Positions 23,167 through 31,004 of a DNA stretch of 64,000 nt are shown here, piece after piece. The position numbers were made by a program, and so were the translations under genes. Numbering within the stretch: position 1 is the stretch's first letter; the number at the start of each line of letters is the position of its first letter. The notes under the pieces were generated by a model. The model was not told the DNA's origin and did not search any database. It saw only the letters and a list, made by a program, of their open reading frames with translations. Origin of the DNA: Halanaerobiales bacterium (lineage in GTDB: Bacteria > Bacillota > Halanaerobiia > Halanaerobiales > DTU029); NCBI GenBank assembly GCA_029981855.1, contig JARRCS010000015.1, positions 1 to 64,000 of the forward strand. The letters run 5' to 3'.

Positions 23167-26100
23167 TCATATATTAATCAAACAAATTTTAGTAAACAAT
23201 TTCGCTATTAAATCCTCATCATCATTAAATAAAACATTCCGCTTTTCAAATTCCTCTCTTCTATCCTCTTTAAACTCTCTTCTCAGTTCTTCAAACCTGG
23301 TGTTGGAGATAATAAAGGAATTTAGGATTATCAACTTATCCCGGGAATCACTTAATTCTTTTTCGATATCTTTTATAGTCTGATGTAACTTAATCTTTGG
23401 ATGCTCGAGATGGTGTAGGTTCCTTATCCCTTTAGGATCAACAAAGTTGATATATTGTTTCTCATCATCCTTAACCCAGAGAATGAAGTCAGGATAGAAG
23501 TTATTAGCCTCAAAGAAACCTACCCCCTTCCCCCTGGTCAGGTTTCTTAAGACAAAGATCTCTTTATCCTTAAGCAGTTCCTTTTCTTTTGCACCTAAAA
23601 AATACTCTCTCAGCTTCTCTATAAAATACCTTTCATCTTTATTTAAACCTACTGGTGTTGATTTTATTTGTTTTCCCTGGACCAGTAAGGGCTGGAAAAG
23701 ATGCCGGTCAAAATAGACATTAGGGATTGCCTCAATCTCTTCCAGTCTTTCATCATAAATCTCATCCTGACGGTCAATCAATTCCTTAATCTCTTTGATT
23801 AATTCCTTCTTTCTCTTATCCACTTTCAGCACATAGTCCTGAAAGTTACTATCTTCTTTACTTAGTGGGGTATATTCCAGATGTTTATTTTCATAAGCCA
23901 GCCGCCTATTTTTATAGAATTTAGCAATATATTTTTTCAAAATCTTACTGACCGTATCCTCTAGCTTACTAAAATCAGCAAAAATTCTAACAGTGATATC
24001 TTCTGGATTACAGTAGAGAGTATATAGCCTATTCTCTAAGATTGACTTTAAAGTTTCTTTTTTCAGTAATAGATTACTGAACTGCCTTTGTTTTTTATAA
24101 CTAACCATCTCTAAATAAAGCTGATCCCAGTTTAAATAATCCAGATATTTGGTCTTGATTATCTGGGGTTCCTCATCATTAACTACATCATTATCCTTTT
24201 TCGAATTAAAACTCATTAACTGCTCCATTTTCGGCCTGAGGTCAAGCTTAACAATTATATCTTTATCTACTTCCAGTTCAATCAGCTTATCTTCTTTAAA
24301 ATTAACCTGATCATTGACCTTCAGGGTTAAGAGGTCTTTTTTTAGAAATTCCGTATTTCTCTTGACCGGCAGTTTTATCTCTTCATAACCGGCTGTCTCA
24401 ATTCCCTCTTTCTCCAGGTATTCTCTGAATTTATCCATATAATCTGCTTTAATCCCGAAGATATTTAAGGTCTCCAATAATTCAATATACTCAGGATGTT
24501 TCCGCTCGGTAAAAACAGAGCTCCGCTGGAGGGAGTTATTTAATCCCCTTAATCTTACCCCTCTACCGAAAAGCTGGATGATCTGTGAGCCTTCACTCCT
24601 ACCAATATTTAATAGGCCAATATTGGATACCCGATAACTATTCCAGCCTTCAGTAAACTTACGGGAACCTATTAAAATATTTATCTTGGAATCCCTGTCA
24701 TTGATCCGGGTAAAAAAGGAATCGGCAAAATTATCTTCTAATAAGTTAATACTTGCCTTTTCTAATCTCTTACTGAGTCTGGAAACATCTCCAATATTGA
24801 TTAACCCAAAGTAATCGGCAGATCCTTTTATCTTCAGACCGATCTCACCCTGTACATTTTTGATCTCATATAATTCCAGGACATGAGAGAGGCCGGCTGA
24901 GGTATTGAAGATTGCTTTAAGGATTCCTGCATAAATCTCCGTACCGTCCTGTTCCTTTCCTTTTAAATAAGGGAATTTATCGGCAAATATATCCCGACCA
25001 TCTTCATCAATAAAGCCACTTTTGTTATTTAAGATATTATTAATTGTATTAATCATAGCTGCCTTTTCGCTCAGGAATTTATTGAGAAACTGGATAACAA
25101 ACTCCAGGTCACTGATACTGGCCTTATCATCACTGGTAAGACTACCCGAAGCACTGACAGTGTGACCCACAAAGAGTAACAAAGGATTTTCCAGATTATA
25201 CGTCCTTATCTTTTCTTCATTTTCCTGATAATATAATTTCTGTTCATAAAAGGATAAAAGATTAGCCAGTAAGAAGTTATCATTATATTCCTTCAACTGG
25301 GCCTCTTTAAGGTTTAAGATACTGTAATCCTTACCATAACCGTCTTCATAGAAGTATTTATAGGAATAATCGAAGATTATGGATTTAGAGTACTCTTCCA
25401 GGAGATTATTATATAAGCCCTTTATCTTCTCCTGCTGAAGAGTGTCAAGGTTATACTCCTGCATCTTCTCCTCAAGCTGATAGAGGGACATATTGATATA
25501 GGTATGGTGTTTATTAACATTAAAAATATCGTCTGCAATCTCTTCCGGGAGACTCAATTCCTTGACCCGGTTATTAACATACTCAGCATCATTCTTCCAT
25601 TTTTCCGAGCAGTCAACCCGATTACCTACAGCTTGACCAAAGGTAGCACTGTACTCAAAAATAAAACCATCCCGGGCCAGAAGTTCCCGGTTCTCCTTCC
25701 AGACATCACCACCACTACCTTTATGGCCTTCATCGACTAAGACCAGGTTATGACCTTCCAACCAGCTGATTTCAATACTATCCCCTTCACCCTCTTTGGT
25801 TTCCACCAGTTTGGTAATTTCAATTATATAGACCTTATCTTCTTTAAATAAACCTCCCTGGACATTTAGGAGGTAATCAGCTTCTATGTTGCTTTTTTTA
25901 AATTCCTCCAGATGCTGCTTACTTAAGCCACTATTAGGGGTTACCAGGATAACATTATCCAGTTCCCGGTCACTATATCTGAGATACTGCAGGTAATTGA
26001 TATGCATAATCAGGGTTTTGCCTGATCCGGTCGCCATATAGTAGGCTAACTTATGTAAATCCTTCTCTGTAAAATGGGAATAACGTTCTTTTGCCTTTTT

Positions 26101-26511
26101 AATCTGCTGGTTTTCCTCATTGACAAACCGATTCAATTCTGCCAGGAATTTTTTTCTTTGCTTAAAATACCTATCAAGGAATATCTCCGTAAAAAGAACT
26201 GCTAGATACTGAAAATACTTAAGAACAATCGGATTATCCCTTTTTAGGTTAATATGGTCAAGGTATTCTTTAATGTTACGATCATAATCCTCCAATTTAT
26301 TGAATAACTCTTTATCAAGCTCAAGGTTTGAGGATAACAAACTCTCCAGGAAATAGCTCTTTCCTTCCTCATTAAAACCCTCTCTGGCATTTAGTAGCAC
26401 ATCACGTAAGTTTTGCTCAAATAATTGCGGGTTATCTGCTGCAGCCAATTTTTTTACACCGAAGAGGGATAAAATATATTTATTGAGAATTAAACGGTCC
26501 TGTAACTTCAT
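23167..26511 (-). CDS. type III restriction enzyme, Res subunit
   Basis: The protein of about 1,114 residues combines a superfamily 2 helicase with a nuclease. Walker A is YYMATGSGKTLIM, motif II is LVLVDEGHKG, and the late helicase motif is QLFGRGVRLRG. A PD-(D/E)xK nuclease site appears near the C-terminus as YPDFILWV followed by INFVDPKG. I start it at the ATG at 26511, preceded by AAGAGGTG. It works with the Mod methyltransferase encoded upstream, separated from it by three small genes. Confidence 0.9.
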   Translation of the reverse strand: MKLQDRLILNKYILSLFGVKKLAAADNPQLFEQNLRDVLLNAREGFNEEGKSYFLESLLSSNLELDKELFNKLEDYDRNIKEYLDHINLKRDNPIVLKYFQYLAVLFTEIFLDRYFKQRKKFLAELNRFVNEENQQIKKAKERYSHFTEKDLHKLAYYMATGSGKTLIMHINYLQYLRYSDRELDNVILVTPNSGLSKQHLEEFKKSNIEADYLLNVQGGLFKEDKVYIIEITKLVETKEGEGDSIEISWLEGHNLVLVDEGHKGSGGDVWKENRELLARDGFIFEYSATFGQAVGNRVDCSEKWKNDAEYVNNRVKELSLPEEIADDIFNVNKHHTYINMSLYQLEEKMQEYNLDTLQQEKIKGLYNNLLEEYSKSIIFDYSYKYFYEDGYGKDYSILNLKEAQLKEYNDNFLLANLLSFYEQKLYYQENEEKIRTYNLENPLLLFVGHTVSASGSLTSDDKASISDLEFVIQFLNKFLSEKAAMINTINNILNNKSGFIDEDGRDIFADKFPYLKGKEQDGTEIYAGILKAIFNTSAGLSHVLELYEIKNVQGEIGLKIKGSADYFGLINIGDVSRLSKRLEKASINLLEDNFADSFFTRINDRDSKINILIGSRKFTEGWNSYRVSNIGLLNIGRSEGSQIIQLFGRGVRLRGLNNSLQRSSVFTERKHPEYIELLETLNIFGIKADYMDKFREYLEKEGIETAGYEEIKLPVKRNTEFLKKDLLTLKVNDQVNFKEDKLIELEVDKDIIVKLDLRPKMEQLMSFNSKKDNDVVNDEEPQIIKTKYLDYLNWDQLYLEMVSYKKQRQFSNLLLKKETLKSILENRLYTLYCNPEDITVRIFADFSKLEDTVSKILKKYIAKFYKNRRLAYENKHLEYTPLSKEDSNFQDYVLKVDKRKKELIKEIKELIDRQDEIYDERLEEIEAIPNVYFDRHLFQPLLVQGKQIKSTPVGLNKDERYFIEKLREYFLGAKEKELLKDKEIFVLRNLTRGKGVGFFEANNFYPDFILWVKDDEKQYINFVDPKGIRNLHHLEHPKIKLHQTIKDIEKELSDSRDKLIILNSFIISNTRFEELRREFKEDRREEFEKRNVLFNDDEDLIAKLFTKICLINI

Positions 26512-26524
26512 TAAGTAACACCTC

Positions 26525-27094
26525 TTATAACTCCAGATCAATATCCACTTTATCTGGATCTACTTTAACTGTAAATTTTAATTCATCACTCTTTATCATA
26601 TTACCCATCTGATTTTCAAGAAATTTAAAATACCCGTTTATACCCCATTCGTTATTCCATAATTCTACTGATTCTTTAATTCTTATTAAACACATAACAG
26701 GATTTGTAAAAAATTCTTCCAGTGTTGTTTTATCAGTTAAATCGAAGTCTTCACCTAAAACAGCCTTCAACTCTTCATTAAAAAAGGGGTCACAACATGT
26801 CTGTAATGCTTCTAAATACGCCTTGTTGGCATCATCCAGTTGCCTGGAAAAATCATATTCAATATCATTTAGATATCCATCAATTTTCAATAAAAAAATA
26901 TTAATCGCTTCAATAACCTTTCTACTATTATAGTTTGGATATTTTCGATGAATTTTTAAAAGATTAGACTCCATTGTAAAAAGTTCAAGGCTGTAAATAG
27001 CCTCTTCTCCCTTTTTTATTTTCCCGAATTTCTTACTCATTTTATCTGCTATTTTTTCCATTTTATAATTATTTACCCTGAGCTGTTTCATCAT
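26525..27094 (-). CDS. hypothetical protein between mod and res, 189 aa
   Basis: The ATG at 27094 overlaps the stop of the small zinc-finger gene as TAATG, with AAGGAAG upstream, so the two are coupled. The protein is helical and acidic: MESNLLKIHRKYPNYNSRKV, EALQTCCDPFFNEELKAVLG, and a C-terminal TVKVDPDKVDIDLEL. I recognise no family. It ends 13 nt before res, so it is probably part of the same transcript and may modulate the restriction system. Confidence 0.75.
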   Translation of the reverse strand: MMKQLRVNNYKMEKIADKMSKKFGKIKKGEEAIYSLELFTMESNLLKIHRKYPNYNSRKVIEAINIFLLKIDGYLNDIEYDFSRQLDDANKAYLEALQTCCDPFFNEELKAVLGEDFDLTDKTTLEEFFTNPVMCLIRIKESVELWNNEWGINGYFKFLENQMGNMIKSDELKFTVKVDPDKVDIDLEL

Positions 27095-27252
27095 TACCAC
27101 TTCCTTAGATCTTTATTTTCTTCTGCAGGACCGGTATACCCACATACTCCCATCCGCGGAGAATTAACACAGCTTTTTAAATGTCTTGTCATTCCTCTTT
27201 TTGCATATTCATTGCCACAACAAAAACATTTCCCTTTATAAACTTTTGCCAT
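27094..27252 (-). CDS. small zinc-finger protein, 52 aa
   Basis: GGAGGAGATG precedes the ATG at 27252. The protein has KCFCCGNEYAKRGMTRHLKS followed by a cysteine, giving a C-x2-C...H-x4-C zinc finger. A similar finger occurs at the N-terminus of some pRiA4b ORF-3-like proteins, and such a protein is encoded just upstream. It may therefore be a detached domain. It is coupled to the next gene through TAATG. Confidence 0.7.
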   Translation of the reverse strand: MAKVYKGKCFCCGNEYAKRGMTRHLKSCVNSPRMGVCGYTGPAEENKDLRKW

Positions 27253-27346
27253 CTTTACATCTCCTCCTCTAATAGTCTGAACTAAAACCAGACATTAACT
27301 TATTTATAACAAGCCTGCCCTTATGGTTAATATCTAATTGTAAAAA

Positions 27347-27922
27347 TCACTTAATCTTACGTAATTCCCTATTAACTTCATTACGGTAGAAATATTCAGG
27401 ATCAAATTTCCTTCCACCAGTATCCTTTTCCGCCCAGATCAGCATATTCTCATAATCCGGATGATTACTATCACTTATGATCCTGATAAATTCTTCATAA
27501 CCTCCGACACCTCCAACATCCTCAGGCGGCCGGTGCCGCTCACCATCTAAACAGACAGGATAACTATATTCATCTTCAGCCTTTAACACTTTTTCAACAA
27601 CAACTTCATGAATCCAATCATCTCCAAGATCATAAGTATAGGTAAATTTTGCACCTTCAGTCATATATGCGTCTATTTTTGTACTTCTGGGATTCTTCTC
27701 CGGCTTGCCATATAGTTCACCCGATGCAAATTCATCTGATGGTAATGTAACTACAAAGTCCTGAAATTCAAAATTATATAAATGATAGTTTTGCCAACCA
27801 AAGGAAGCCTGAATATACTTATGCAACCTTGCAAATGTGATATCGGAAGGAATAACTATTCTCCTCCAGATTGGCGGTTCTATTCCTTGAATTGTAATTT
27901 TTATTTGATACACTTTCTCCAT
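27347..27922 (-). CDS. plasmid pRiA4b ORF-3-like protein
   Basis: I use the ATG at 27922 behind AGAAGGAGAG, giving 191 residues. MEKVYQIKITIQGIEPPIWR starts a pRiA4b ORF-3 domain. Family hallmarks follow: FARLHKYIQASFGWQNYHLY, TYDLGDDWIHEV and CLDGERHRPPEDVGGVGGYE. The family is widespread and linked to mobile elements, but its biochemical role is unknown to me. It lies between mod and res. Confidence 0.85.
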   Translation of the reverse strand: MEKVYQIKITIQGIEPPIWRRIVIPSDITFARLHKYIQASFGWQNYHLYNFEFQDFVVTLPSDEFASGELYGKPEKNPRSTKIDAYMTEGAKFTYTYDLGDDWIHEVVVEKVLKAEDEYSYPVCLDGERHRPPEDVGGVGGYEEFIRIISDSNHPDYENMLIWAEKDTGGRKFDPEYFYRNEVNRELRKIK

Positions 27923-28061
27923 TGATACTCTCTCCTTCTCTATAATAAGTTTCGTCAGATTCACCACTAGAAAAAGTCCCTGATTTCCCTGCTGCATAGT
28001 CCTTAATAGAAGTTTTACTGGCTCACATGGCTTTTTTAATGAACCAGTACTATTATTTGTT

Positions 28062-31004
28062 CTACGCAAACAATAGCTTAGAAAACTGCTCTTCAATTAA
28101 TAAAGAACCAGGGAGATAATTATCTCCATTAAGATAGATCAGATCATAGACTTTATCTCCAATTATTTCTGTTTCAACAAATTCCTTGTCTTTTTTCAAA
28201 TCTAAGCCCTCTATATTCCTCCAGACAATCAATATTTTCTGGTTATTTTTCTTACCTGTTACGACTTTATATCTCCTACCCTGATCAGTAAAGATCCTGA
28301 TTTGTTGAACATCTAAACCGATTAGATAATTAAAGGTCTCAACCAGATTTACTTTTTTCTTGATCTTCTCCTTATCCATAGTTATTTCCAGACAGTAATT
28401 AAAGGGATCTGTGAATTTATCGATATCTAACAGGGATTTGCTGGTTTCATAATCAAGCATATATTTAATAAGGTAATCGGGAAACTGGTCATTTAAACTT
28501 AATTGTGCCCTTTCCTGCTCAAATTTTATATTATCCAGGGTGTCTTCATATTGTTCAAGACTCTGGTATTTGAAGATGTGGCTATATCCTTCCTGGGATT
28601 GTGGTTGTCCATCTTTCCAGGCAGAGGAATACATAATCCTTTTCAAACGAGGAAGCATAGTTGTATAGAAATAATCCCCTAATTCAACCTGGATATATTT
28701 ACGGTTTCCTTCATCCTCTTTATTTAATTCCAGAGCAGCCTGGCCGGTAGTTCCTGAACCGGCGAAAAAGTCCATTACTATATCATTCTGAATAGAACCA
28801 AGCTGTAAGATTCTTTTAATCAAACGCACTGTTTTGGGAGTATCAAAAATATTATCATCTTCATTCAATAGTGATTTTAACTCTTGTTTTGCCTCCTGAT
28901 TATGACCTACTTCATTATGTGTCCAGATTGTTAATGGAGTTACGCCATCTTTTACTTCAGAAAGAAACCTTTTTAATCTAGGGACATTATTACCATCTTC
29001 ACCAAACCAGATCCGGTTATCTTCTACTAACTCCTCAAATTTTTCTTCAGTTACCCGCCAACAAGTACCAGCAGGTGGTTTTACTTTTCTCCCGGAAGGT
29101 GTGGTAATCTCATAATCAGTATCTGGATTATAAGTTTTTACAGATAAATCACCAGAAGTCCAGGGACCACGCGGATCATTATCAGGATTTTTATAGCGAC
29201 TATTCTGTTTTTCAGTCCTCGGCAGAAGATTAATAACCCAGTTTTCTTTATTTTTAGCATAACAGACTATAAAATCATGGTTATCTGAAAACCAGCGGGC
29301 ATCATTCTGTGGTGAGAATTTTTTCTGCCAGATAATATTTGAAACAAAATTGTTATCCCCAAATATCTGATCACAGAGTTTCTTAAAATTAGAATGTTCA
29401 TTATCATCGATACTGACAAAGATAACACCATCATCAGCCAACAGTTCGGCAGCAAGAGCAAGCCTATTTTCCATCATAGTTAACCAGCTGGAATGCTGGT
29501 AATTATCCTTATAGATAAAGTCATCACCCCCGGTATTATAGGGAGGATCGATATAGATACATTTCACCTTACCCCTATATTTTTCTAACAAAAGATTAAG
29601 AGCCTGGAAGTTCTCACTGTTTATCAATAAGCCTTCTATCTCTTCATCCAGGTTATCAAAGGCAGCTAAAAGCTCATCCTTAAATTTCTCATCAAAGTAT
29701 TTTGTATCTATAACCAGATTTTTTAAACCTTTTCCATCAAAAAGATCAGGCTTTTCTATAAATAAATCTTCCTTGCTTGCTATTTTCTCCCCATATAATT
29801 CTTCCCACTCTTTTAACTGTTCATGATTATTTAAGACTTCATTAAAGACCTTATCCCGGATCTTTTCCGGTACCCTATCTAAGGTTAAACAATATTCATC
29901 CTGTAAAACAAACTTCTTCTTTTCGAAGAGTTTCTTCTGGTAGTTCTCTATCTGAGCCAGGAACTCTATTATCTTCTGGCAAATAGCTTTAACAACCTTT
30001 ATCCTGGTCAGATATGCCTTAAAGTCATTTTCGGTTGCCGTTCCGATAGAATCGATATCCATGATCTCATTTTTTATGTAGAAGTCTAATTCCCTTTCCA
30101 GAAAGCCCTTTAAGTCTTTATGGATAAAGTAATCAGATTTATTCTTTTTAGTGTATTTATAAAGATGTTTGGCCAGGATTGATTTAGCTTTATTATCTTC
30201 ATCAATTAACCAGTACAGTTCCTGTAATAATTTTGTATCTGCTTTAATAATATCAGCAATCTCTTTTTCGATATACTCCCTAATATCTGCCTGGGTATTT
30301 TGAGTCTTATAATTCTTCTTTTCCTCAGCGGTTAGATTACGGTATTCAAAATAGATAGTGAGTATTTTCGCTTCCGGATCATAAACAAAAAAATCCTTTT
30401 CCTTAAGGAGAAAATATCTGTCTTCATCAGCCTTATTATTATTCTTTTCCACCTGGGCCTGTTTAATCTCAAAATTTACCTGAAAATTATTCTGTTTAAA
30501 GGTGTAATGATTGAATTCCTCACTGGTTTTGATATAGTACTGGTCATTATTAGCCCAATGTAAGTATACCTCTTCCCCATTATAGGGAATAGCATATTTA
30601 TACTGTTTTGAATATCTCCTCTTAGAAAGGAAGTCACCATTATCATAATAGCGTTTAAAAAAGGTATAGATATCATTATAGATTTCTGATTCCAGGTTTT
30701 CTCCCACCTGATATTGAGCCATCTTTTCCTGAATTTCCTGGTATTTAGCAGTTTGTTTATAGTCTACACCTAAGCTTTCTGCATTTTCTTTTACCCTCTC
30801 CAGTTCCTGTTCTAAACTTTCTTTGCCTTCATCTTCAATAAGAACTATTTCTTCTTCAATAAAATTAATTAAATCTTTATTTATAAACTCTTTTATTTCC
30901 TGGTGTTTTTGATTCATGATTCGATAGATGCCAAAATCGAGATCAGCATTATCGAATTGAAAGAGCTCTTTTAGTAGGTTTTGTAACCTGACCCTATTAT
31001 CCAT
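28062..31004 (-). CDS. type III DNA methyltransferase, Mod subunit
   Basis: The 980-residue adenine methyltransferase has motif IV CIYIDPPYNTGGDDFIYKD before motif I IVMDFFAGSGTTGQAALE, the beta order used by type III Mod proteins. It gives sequence specificity and protects host DNA. It is longer than classical Mod (about 650), with an N-terminal helical extension of about 430 residues. The long form usually accompanies a Res of over 1,000 residues, as here. Confidence 0.92.
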   Translation of the reverse strand: MDNRVRLQNLLKELFQFDNADLDFGIYRIMNQKHQEIKEFINKDLINFIEEEIVLIEDEGKESLEQELERVKENAESLGVDYKQTAKYQEIQEKMAQYQVGENLESEIYNDIYTFFKRYYDNGDFLSKRRYSKQYKYAIPYNGEEVYLHWANNDQYYIKTSEEFNHYTFKQNNFQVNFEIKQAQVEKNNNKADEDRYFLLKEKDFFVYDPEAKILTIYFEYRNLTAEEKKNYKTQNTQADIREYIEKEIADIIKADTKLLQELYWLIDEDNKAKSILAKHLYKYTKKNKSDYFIHKDLKGFLERELDFYIKNEIMDIDSIGTATENDFKAYLTRIKVVKAICQKIIEFLAQIENYQKKLFEKKKFVLQDEYCLTLDRVPEKIRDKVFNEVLNNHEQLKEWEELYGEKIASKEDLFIEKPDLFDGKGLKNLVIDTKYFDEKFKDELLAAFDNLDEEIEGLLINSENFQALNLLLEKYRGKVKCIYIDPPYNTGGDDFIYKDNYQHSSWLTMMENRLALAAELLADDGVIFVSIDDNEHSNFKKLCDQIFGDNNFVSNIIWQKKFSPQNDARWFSDNHDFIVCYAKNKENWVINLLPRTEKQNSRYKNPDNDPRGPWTSGDLSVKTYNPDTDYEITTPSGRKVKPPAGTCWRVTEEKFEELVEDNRIWFGEDGNNVPRLKRFLSEVKDGVTPLTIWTHNEVGHNQEAKQELKSLLNEDDNIFDTPKTVRLIKRILQLGSIQNDIVMDFFAGSGTTGQAALELNKEDEGNRKYIQVELGDYFYTTMLPRLKRIMYSSAWKDGQPQSQEGYSHIFKYQSLEQYEDTLDNIKFEQERAQLSLNDQFPDYLIKYMLDYETSKSLLDIDKFTDPFNYCLEITMDKEKIKKKVNLVETFNYLIGLDVQQIRIFTDQGRRYKVVTGKKNNQKILIVWRNIEGLDLKKDKEFVETEIIGDKVYDLIYLNGDNYLPGSLLIEEQFSKLLFA

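Follow-up and report, generated by a model that had tools for sequence, protein, structure and literature searches.

An accessory gene block lies between the methyltransferase gene (mod) and the restriction/helicase subunit gene (res) of a type III restriction-modification (R-M) locus in the 64,000-nucleotide stretch of DNA analyzed here (the window). The block is best read as partly decayed passenger cargo in a slot that is used recurrently, in which a pRiA4b ORF-3 gene and the gene of an unnamed protein (p189) are still open, and this reading was assigned a probability of roughly 0.63. The block would have been acquired in the mod/res orientation and would once have held at least four genes, encoding an integrase-SAM-like protein, a pRiA4b ORF-3 protein, a full-length zinc-finger/pRiA4b protein, and p189. 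It appears to be eroding by internal deletions, which would have left the frames of pRiA4b and p189 alone open in the window. The block probably shares the transcript of mod and res and travels along with the R-M locus. Judged by gene content, it is presumably dispensable for restriction, since most of the related loci examined had no insert.

The genes were ordered mod, pRiA4b ORF-3, 52-codon ORF, p189, and res on the minus strand (Table 1). The first-pass annotation had placed three ORFs of one strand between mod and res, and both their location and their orientation were confirmed, as was the TAATG overlap in which the stop codon of the 52-residue ORF and the start codon of p189 share base 27094. 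The stop codon of p189 was located 13 nt before the ATG of res. The Mod protein carried the N6-adenine methylase domain expected of a type III system (PF01555, E=8.2e-45; PADLOC MTase_III, E=7.2e-186), and a DPPY sequence read by eye is presumably its methylase motif. The Res protein contained the helicase motor (PF04851, E=1.1e-11; PF00270) and matched PADLOC REase_III (E=2.2e-177) over residues 42-1106, and its C-terminal endonuclease motif was read by eye only, without a Pfam nuclease match. Mod and Res were 73% and 68% identical, respectively, to their counterparts in genome G342. Judged by gene content, mod and res of the window form an otherwise ordinary type III system, which they resemble in the full-length Mod and Res, the PADLOC type III models, and the helicase and methylase Pfam domains; however, they are 1.55 kb apart.

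Table 1. Features in and around the mod-res gap of the window
Feature	Position	Strand	Description
mod, type III DNA methyltransferase	28062..31004	-	980 aa, full length, ends ...SKLLFA*
Hairpin over mod stop codon	28049..28077	-	11-bp stem, 7-nt loop
Remnant of phage-integrase SAM-like gene	27942..28047	-	Between mod and pRiA4b; internal sequence deleted
pRiA4b ORF-3 family gene	27347..27922	-	Open, 191 aa
52-aa ORF	27094..27252	-	C2HC finger joined directly to NSPRMGVCGYTG tail
p189, unnamed protein family	26525..27094	-	189 aa from ATG 27094; 191 aa from GTG 27100
res, type III restriction/helicase subunit	23167..26511 from ATG	-	1114 aa, full length

A comparison of 33 mod-res junctions, the window included, revealed gaps of -74 to 61 bp in 28 of them, one gap of 268 bp in which no gene was listed, and four gaps that carried genes, all different. 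The proposal that extra genes lie inside a type III locus was thus borne out by the 1550-bp gap of the window, which is an insertion. A res homologue was present in 24 of 398 phylum genomes, including the window's (E<=1e-40), and the phylum part of the sample consisted of 22 junction loci from 21 of the other 23 genomes; G252 and G320 gave one contig-cut fragment each without a junction, and a second G252 fragment was left out. The plasmid part consisted of 10 of the 27 records with a res homologue, and 11 of the 17 records omitted shared identity and score with an included E. coli record. The 33 junctions were not independent events, since some were related, such as haloarchaeal L179 with L186 and two loci of G275, and a slot with four cargos is a small sample. 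The repeat-like sequence in the 268-bp gap, which belonged to a Hymenobacter plasmid (L185:5688-5955), was seen by eye. Several plasmid loci (L178 and L180-L184) had a large helicase gene adjacent or close to mod or res, among them an SNF2-type helicase resembling DrmD in L182 (E=4.7e-177) and a UvrD helicase with PDDEXK_1 in L181; by eye, no such large helicase gene was seen among the listed window ORFs around the locus.

The inserts in all four gene-bearing gaps run in the mod/res direction. The 482-bp gap of G342 held an MNT-kind nucleotidyltransferase gene (PF18765; PADLOC PDC-S09, E=1.5e-19), followed by what appeared by eye to be the end of a HEPN gene. The 1762-bp gap of G214 held the gene of a GmrSD_N protein (PF03235, E=1.3e-33; PADLOC HEC-05, E=8.1e-38), and the 1776-bp gap of Aeromonas media plasmid pE31A held an AAA ATPase gene (PADLOC HEC-01A, E=2.9e-115) and a DUF4276 gene (PADLOC HEC-01B, E=2.1e-66), which were joined by 1-bp overlaps. 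These three cargos may be defence genes, and their matches to candidate-defence models serve as leads. The resemblance of the three other occupants to defence genes favours a functional cargo. With four different gene sets in 4 of 33 gaps, three of them with candidate-defence matches, the mod-res gap is worth searching for unknown defence genes, and p189 is thereby given a testable prediction. Our literature search on genes between mod and res of type III restriction loci retrieved no paper. A broader proposal, in which the junction of a long-Mod type III subfamily would be a recurrent docking slot for R-M-guarded second-line defence genes, with the MNT nucleotidyltransferase, GmrSD, AAA plus DUF4276, and p189 with pRiA4b as its cargos and p189 as the founder of a new defence family, was considered distinctly improbable.

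The sequence around the mod stop codon bears on whether the insert regulates res. The hairpin at this stop had a fold z-score of -3.3 in the window and -5.2 in G274, where it was kept and formed the end of a mod-tail trace (DNA match of 37 bp, 86%, E=6.5e-6); by eye, one pair of the G274 hairpin was changed on both sides, and one G-T pair was changed to G-C. A small ORF lay between the hairpin and the SAM-like ORF in G274. The hairpin was rejected as a terminator, with no T-run after it, and as a dispersed element, with itself as the sole perfect match in the genome; a genome scan gave 3 other matches with 3 mismatches versus 3 for the reversed control. Terminator-like sites were found at 28127-28112, inside mod just 5' of its stop, and inside p189, with 3 found in the region versus 0.8 expected. 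These sites weaken a simple mod-insert-res co-transcription and are compatible with one long transcript. Promoter-like sites (12 found versus 8.5 expected) were little above expectation. The tight 13-nt spacing, the TAATG coupling, the hairpin, and the terminator-like site just before the mod stop would all suit a model in which the 1.55-kb separation and translation of p189 set the level or delay of Res. However, this model is very unlikely, because mod and res are nearly joined in 28 of 33 junctions, whose systems are assumed to work, and because the three other cargos are unrelated proteins. The excerpt of the report on EcoP15I, for which delayed Res translation was described, also named no such genes (PMC12707154).

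Comparison with longer relatives indicated that the 52-residue ORF is what an internal deletion has left of a larger zinc-finger/pRiA4b-like gene. Its residues 1-28 matched the start and its residues 29-52 the end of full-length zinc-finger/pRiA4b proteins, which consist of an N-terminal C2HC finger, a middle domain, and then an NSPRxGxCxY tail. As a query, the ORF matched 19 of 398 phylum genomes, the window's own included (E<=0.01). In G321, residues 1-29 and 28-52 matched two places 600 bp apart in one open frame of 231 codons, and the middle domain of this protein matched PF07929 weakly (E=0.001, below the cut-off). The split match was also found in G158 and G235 and, across two frames, in G251. 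A motif scan of 31 loci (24 short loci from the 52-residue search and seven longer stretches) showed both motifs in eleven distinct sequences, the window included, with a two-motif pattern that misses genes with a different tail or a broken frame. The other 10 were all in stop-to-stop frames of 223-544 codons with 150-201 residues between finger and tail (10/10), versus 1 in the window. The finger and the tail are therefore present but the residues that separate them are missing, which makes the ORF a relic and not a member of the fusion family, and the homologues for both halves argue that it is not a chance ORF. What the first-pass annotation had taken for a 52-residue zinc-finger gene is thus a real ORF with a real finger motif but not an intact small gene, and the tempting annotation as a new restriction regulator is corrected to the joined ends of a far longer gene.

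The same gene was also damaged in the other copies of the block. Part of the lost region (IKENDGEFYSLPI) was kept in G274, in another frame than its tail, and was absent by eye from the window, which implied that the two copies were shortened separately. The finger was lost in G274 and its tail was out of frame with the preceding sequence, and the whole zinc-finger gene was gone in G362. The dN/dS of the zinc-finger tail against G274 was 0.17, over only 23 codons with few amino-acid changes, which counts against pure decay. The window deletion was in frame, the finger motif was complete, and the coupling to p189 was kept, so a functional miniature zinc-finger protein created by deletion and working with p189 might be imagined. 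This idea is hardly credible, since a deletion is in frame by chance one time in three, the G274 and G362 genes were broken or gone, and p189 stands alone in three other genomes.

The remnant between mod and pRiA4b matched an ORF of G274 (L014:8904-9356) by blastn in two parts, one of 61 bp at 93% identity (E=1.4e-20) and one of 48 bp at 90% (E=7e-12). The G274 ORF is still open and encodes 150 residues with a match to PF13102 (E=5.6e-6), and this protein was matched in 6 of 329 genomes. Weakly similar SAM-like proteins (E=2.5e-5 and 8.5e-4) are encoded in G414, after a zinc-finger/pRiA4b gene, and in G416, after a pRiA4b gene. The next-best copy, in G197 (47%), had no pRiA4b gene in its 1.5-kb flanks, which argues against a fixed set of four genes. 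The SAM-like ORF was rejected as a marker of the block, as none besides that of G274 occurred with pRiA4b in the three loci checked.

The block was found in three genomes, namely those of the window, G274, and G362, and the latter two copies were wrecks. G274 keeps the last 74 residues of pRiA4b (92% identical), the zinc-finger tail, and p189 with one frameshift, in this order; the last mod codons with the hairpin at the stop remain upstream, and no recognisable mod or res protein was found within 20 kb. The G362 copy lies at a contig end, where a deletion has fused the start of pRiA4b to the end of p189, and res fragments followed. The trio was thus not found mostly outside restriction loci, as all three block copies were accompanied by type III traces. 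The first-pass suggestion that the trio may regulate or extend restriction was not supported, given the gutted zinc finger, the decay of the block in G274 and G362, and the presence of p189 alone in three genomes, and a direct role of the block in restriction is not supported.

The pRiA4b gene product matched PF07929 along nearly the whole domain (profile positions 1-171 of 173, E=2.5e-61), with 206.8 bits against a curated cut-off of 26.6; the one solved relative was 2i1s_A, a 'hypothetical protein' (E=2.5e-42). The dN/dS of pRiA4b was 0.10 against G274 (74 codons) and 0.08 against G362 (28 codons). This purifying selection suggests that some function is kept and counts against pure decay, and the open frames of pRiA4b and p189 in the window likewise count against full decay. 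A zinc-finger/pRiA4b gene was located directly 3' of a pRiA4b gene in G081, G419, and G414, and the first two genes of the trio were therefore taken as an old pair, although G414 has its zinc-finger/pRiA4b copy split across two frames and, like G419, a shortened pRiA4b domain. No p189 was found in these stretches of G081, G419, or G414.

Matches to pRiA4b were found in 2681 of 72,556 plasmid records (E<=1e-10), 31 of 59 class genomes (E<=1e-8), and 4 of 50,697 phage records (E<=1e-5). A pRiA4b gene adjoined istB on an Azospirillum plasmid, directly followed an IS66 transposase gene in Pseudomonas phage Marin, stood beside TnpA under the name TnpR in a mycobacteriophage, and was about 0.8 kb from a Tn3 transposase gene on the opposite strand of a Nostoc plasmid. 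These four records, which were hand-picked and not a random draw, suggest that pRiA4b genes travel with transposons. The window gene resembles such passengers in its PF07929 protein, but differs in that no transposase ORF was seen in the window and only inverted repeats of 75-82% were found within 26300-28300, none of them flanking the block. Six papers mention pRiA4b ORF-3, none of them addressing its function judging by title, and literature searches on PF07929 and on IS1096 with TnpR and a passenger retrieved no paper. A second pRiA4b fragment with two stop codons was observed elsewhere in the window's genome (G000:C28:3141-3320, L158). In G251 (L097:4536-12003), a zinc-finger/pRiA4b gene in two frames and a UPF0158-like gene immediately preceded Wadjet genes (JetA2, E=2.7e-204; JetB2, E=1.5e-150); such loci near defence genes were seen as single cases. 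The loci L096, L148, L154, and L156, from genomes of the window's order, were recurring neighbourhoods of pRiA4b with small unnamed genes, whose partners varied among zinc-finger/pRiA4b, SAM-like, and UPF0158-like genes; L148 continued into a DUF2357-PDDEXK_7 gene, and L096 and L156 continued, by eye, into a similar one.

The diverged homologues of p189 (64% and 44% identity) argue that it is not a chance ORF, and on sequence grounds p189 is a real unnamed family. It matched 10 of 398 phylum genomes (E<=0.01), and four of these matches, in the window, G274, G086, and G362, were convincing. The six weak rows (E 2e-4 to 0.01) were dropped, most of them being short or interrupted by stops; one dropped row, G012, was a fragment of 28-31 residues (E=1.6e-6) that had no trio neighbours within 1.8 kb. 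Two of 59 class genomes were matched, the window and G412, which was taken as the same record as the Halanaerobium congolense copy, and the class and phylum sets overlap. A further copy was found in an uncultured Lachnospiraceae genome. Searches of genomes near G274 and G086 returned only these copies themselves (1 of 2 and 1 of 4 genomes), and a profile search of 327 genomes covered mostly genomes from the earlier searches. The three other near-full-length copies are solitary, next to kdpC and Usp genes in Halanaerobium, aroB and ABC-transporter genes in Lachnospiraceae, and grpE in G086, where dnaK was recognised by eye beside grpE.

Codon comparisons showed that p189 is conserved among the solo copies, and its C-terminal part is near neutral between the block copies. 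Against G274, dN/dS was 0.21 over 64 N-terminal codons and 0.91 over 114 C-terminal codons, and against G362 it was 0.76 over 61 codons; against the three solo copies, dN was 0.24-0.41 with dS saturated. Compared with L014 and L016, the C-terminal part (26528-26869) had few synonymous changes, unlike pRiA4b. Its synonymous divergence was lower than that of pRiA4b, with 5.5 changes at 62.7 sites versus 13 at 42.8 (Fisher p=0.009 on rounded counts). Few counts underlie these selection values, and of the three block copies two are broken.

Searches of Pfam, PADLOC, NCBIfam, PHROG, and PDB sequences gave no usable match to p189. Its matches to interleukin-2 and cathepsin (E=0.008 and worse) were regarded as chance hits, and an AlphaFold2 model from three sequences, all helices with a pLDDT of 41, was unusable. 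With PADLOC 2.0.0, pRiA4b and the 52-residue ORF had no match and p189 had a weak one (E=0.03 over 57 residues); a full-length zinc-finger/pRiA4b relative also matched no PADLOC model. The first-pass idea of a separate defence module gained from the three other cargos, which match candidate-defence models, but not from the window genes. In this alternative, p189, with or without pRiA4b, would be an independent defence or toxin-antitoxin type module in the mod-res slot, perhaps silenced while the R-M complex is active and set free once restriction is blocked, by analogy with PrrC. The MNT, GmrSD_N, and AAA plus DUF4276 candidates in the other gene-bearing junctions are in its favour, as is a p189 that is open and has diverged in the solo copies. 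The module nevertheless seems unlikely, because p189 matched no toxin, nuclease, or ATPase domain in the searches of Pfam, PADLOC, NCBIfam, and PDB sequences, the solo copies lie beside housekeeping genes such as kdp, aroB/ABC-transporter, and grpE, the phage, plasmid, and viral contig collections searched held no p189, and PADLOC models also match many ordinary ATPases. A defence role of p189 is possible from its location in the slot, and the eroding passenger block is preferred as the explanation of the locus.

Genes lodged in R-M loci have precedents. The prrC gene is reported to be nested in the EcoprrI R-M locus (PMC12707154), and type I loci of Campylobacter are reported to contain rloC, rloE, or rloG as inserts; of 72 RloC copies, 8 map to an R-M locus of type I or type III (PMC2610378). 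The window shares with PrrC and RloC a foreign gene within an R-M locus, but it lacks an ABC ATPase or anticodon-nuclease protein, and no ATPase domain was found in the three ORFs. Other defence genes, GmrSD among them, are described in a report on BREX as linked to or within the host defence locus (PMC12839542). The host system differs from that of the window, and no nuclease domain was found in the window cargo, but in both cases the genes are embedded inside a host defence locus.
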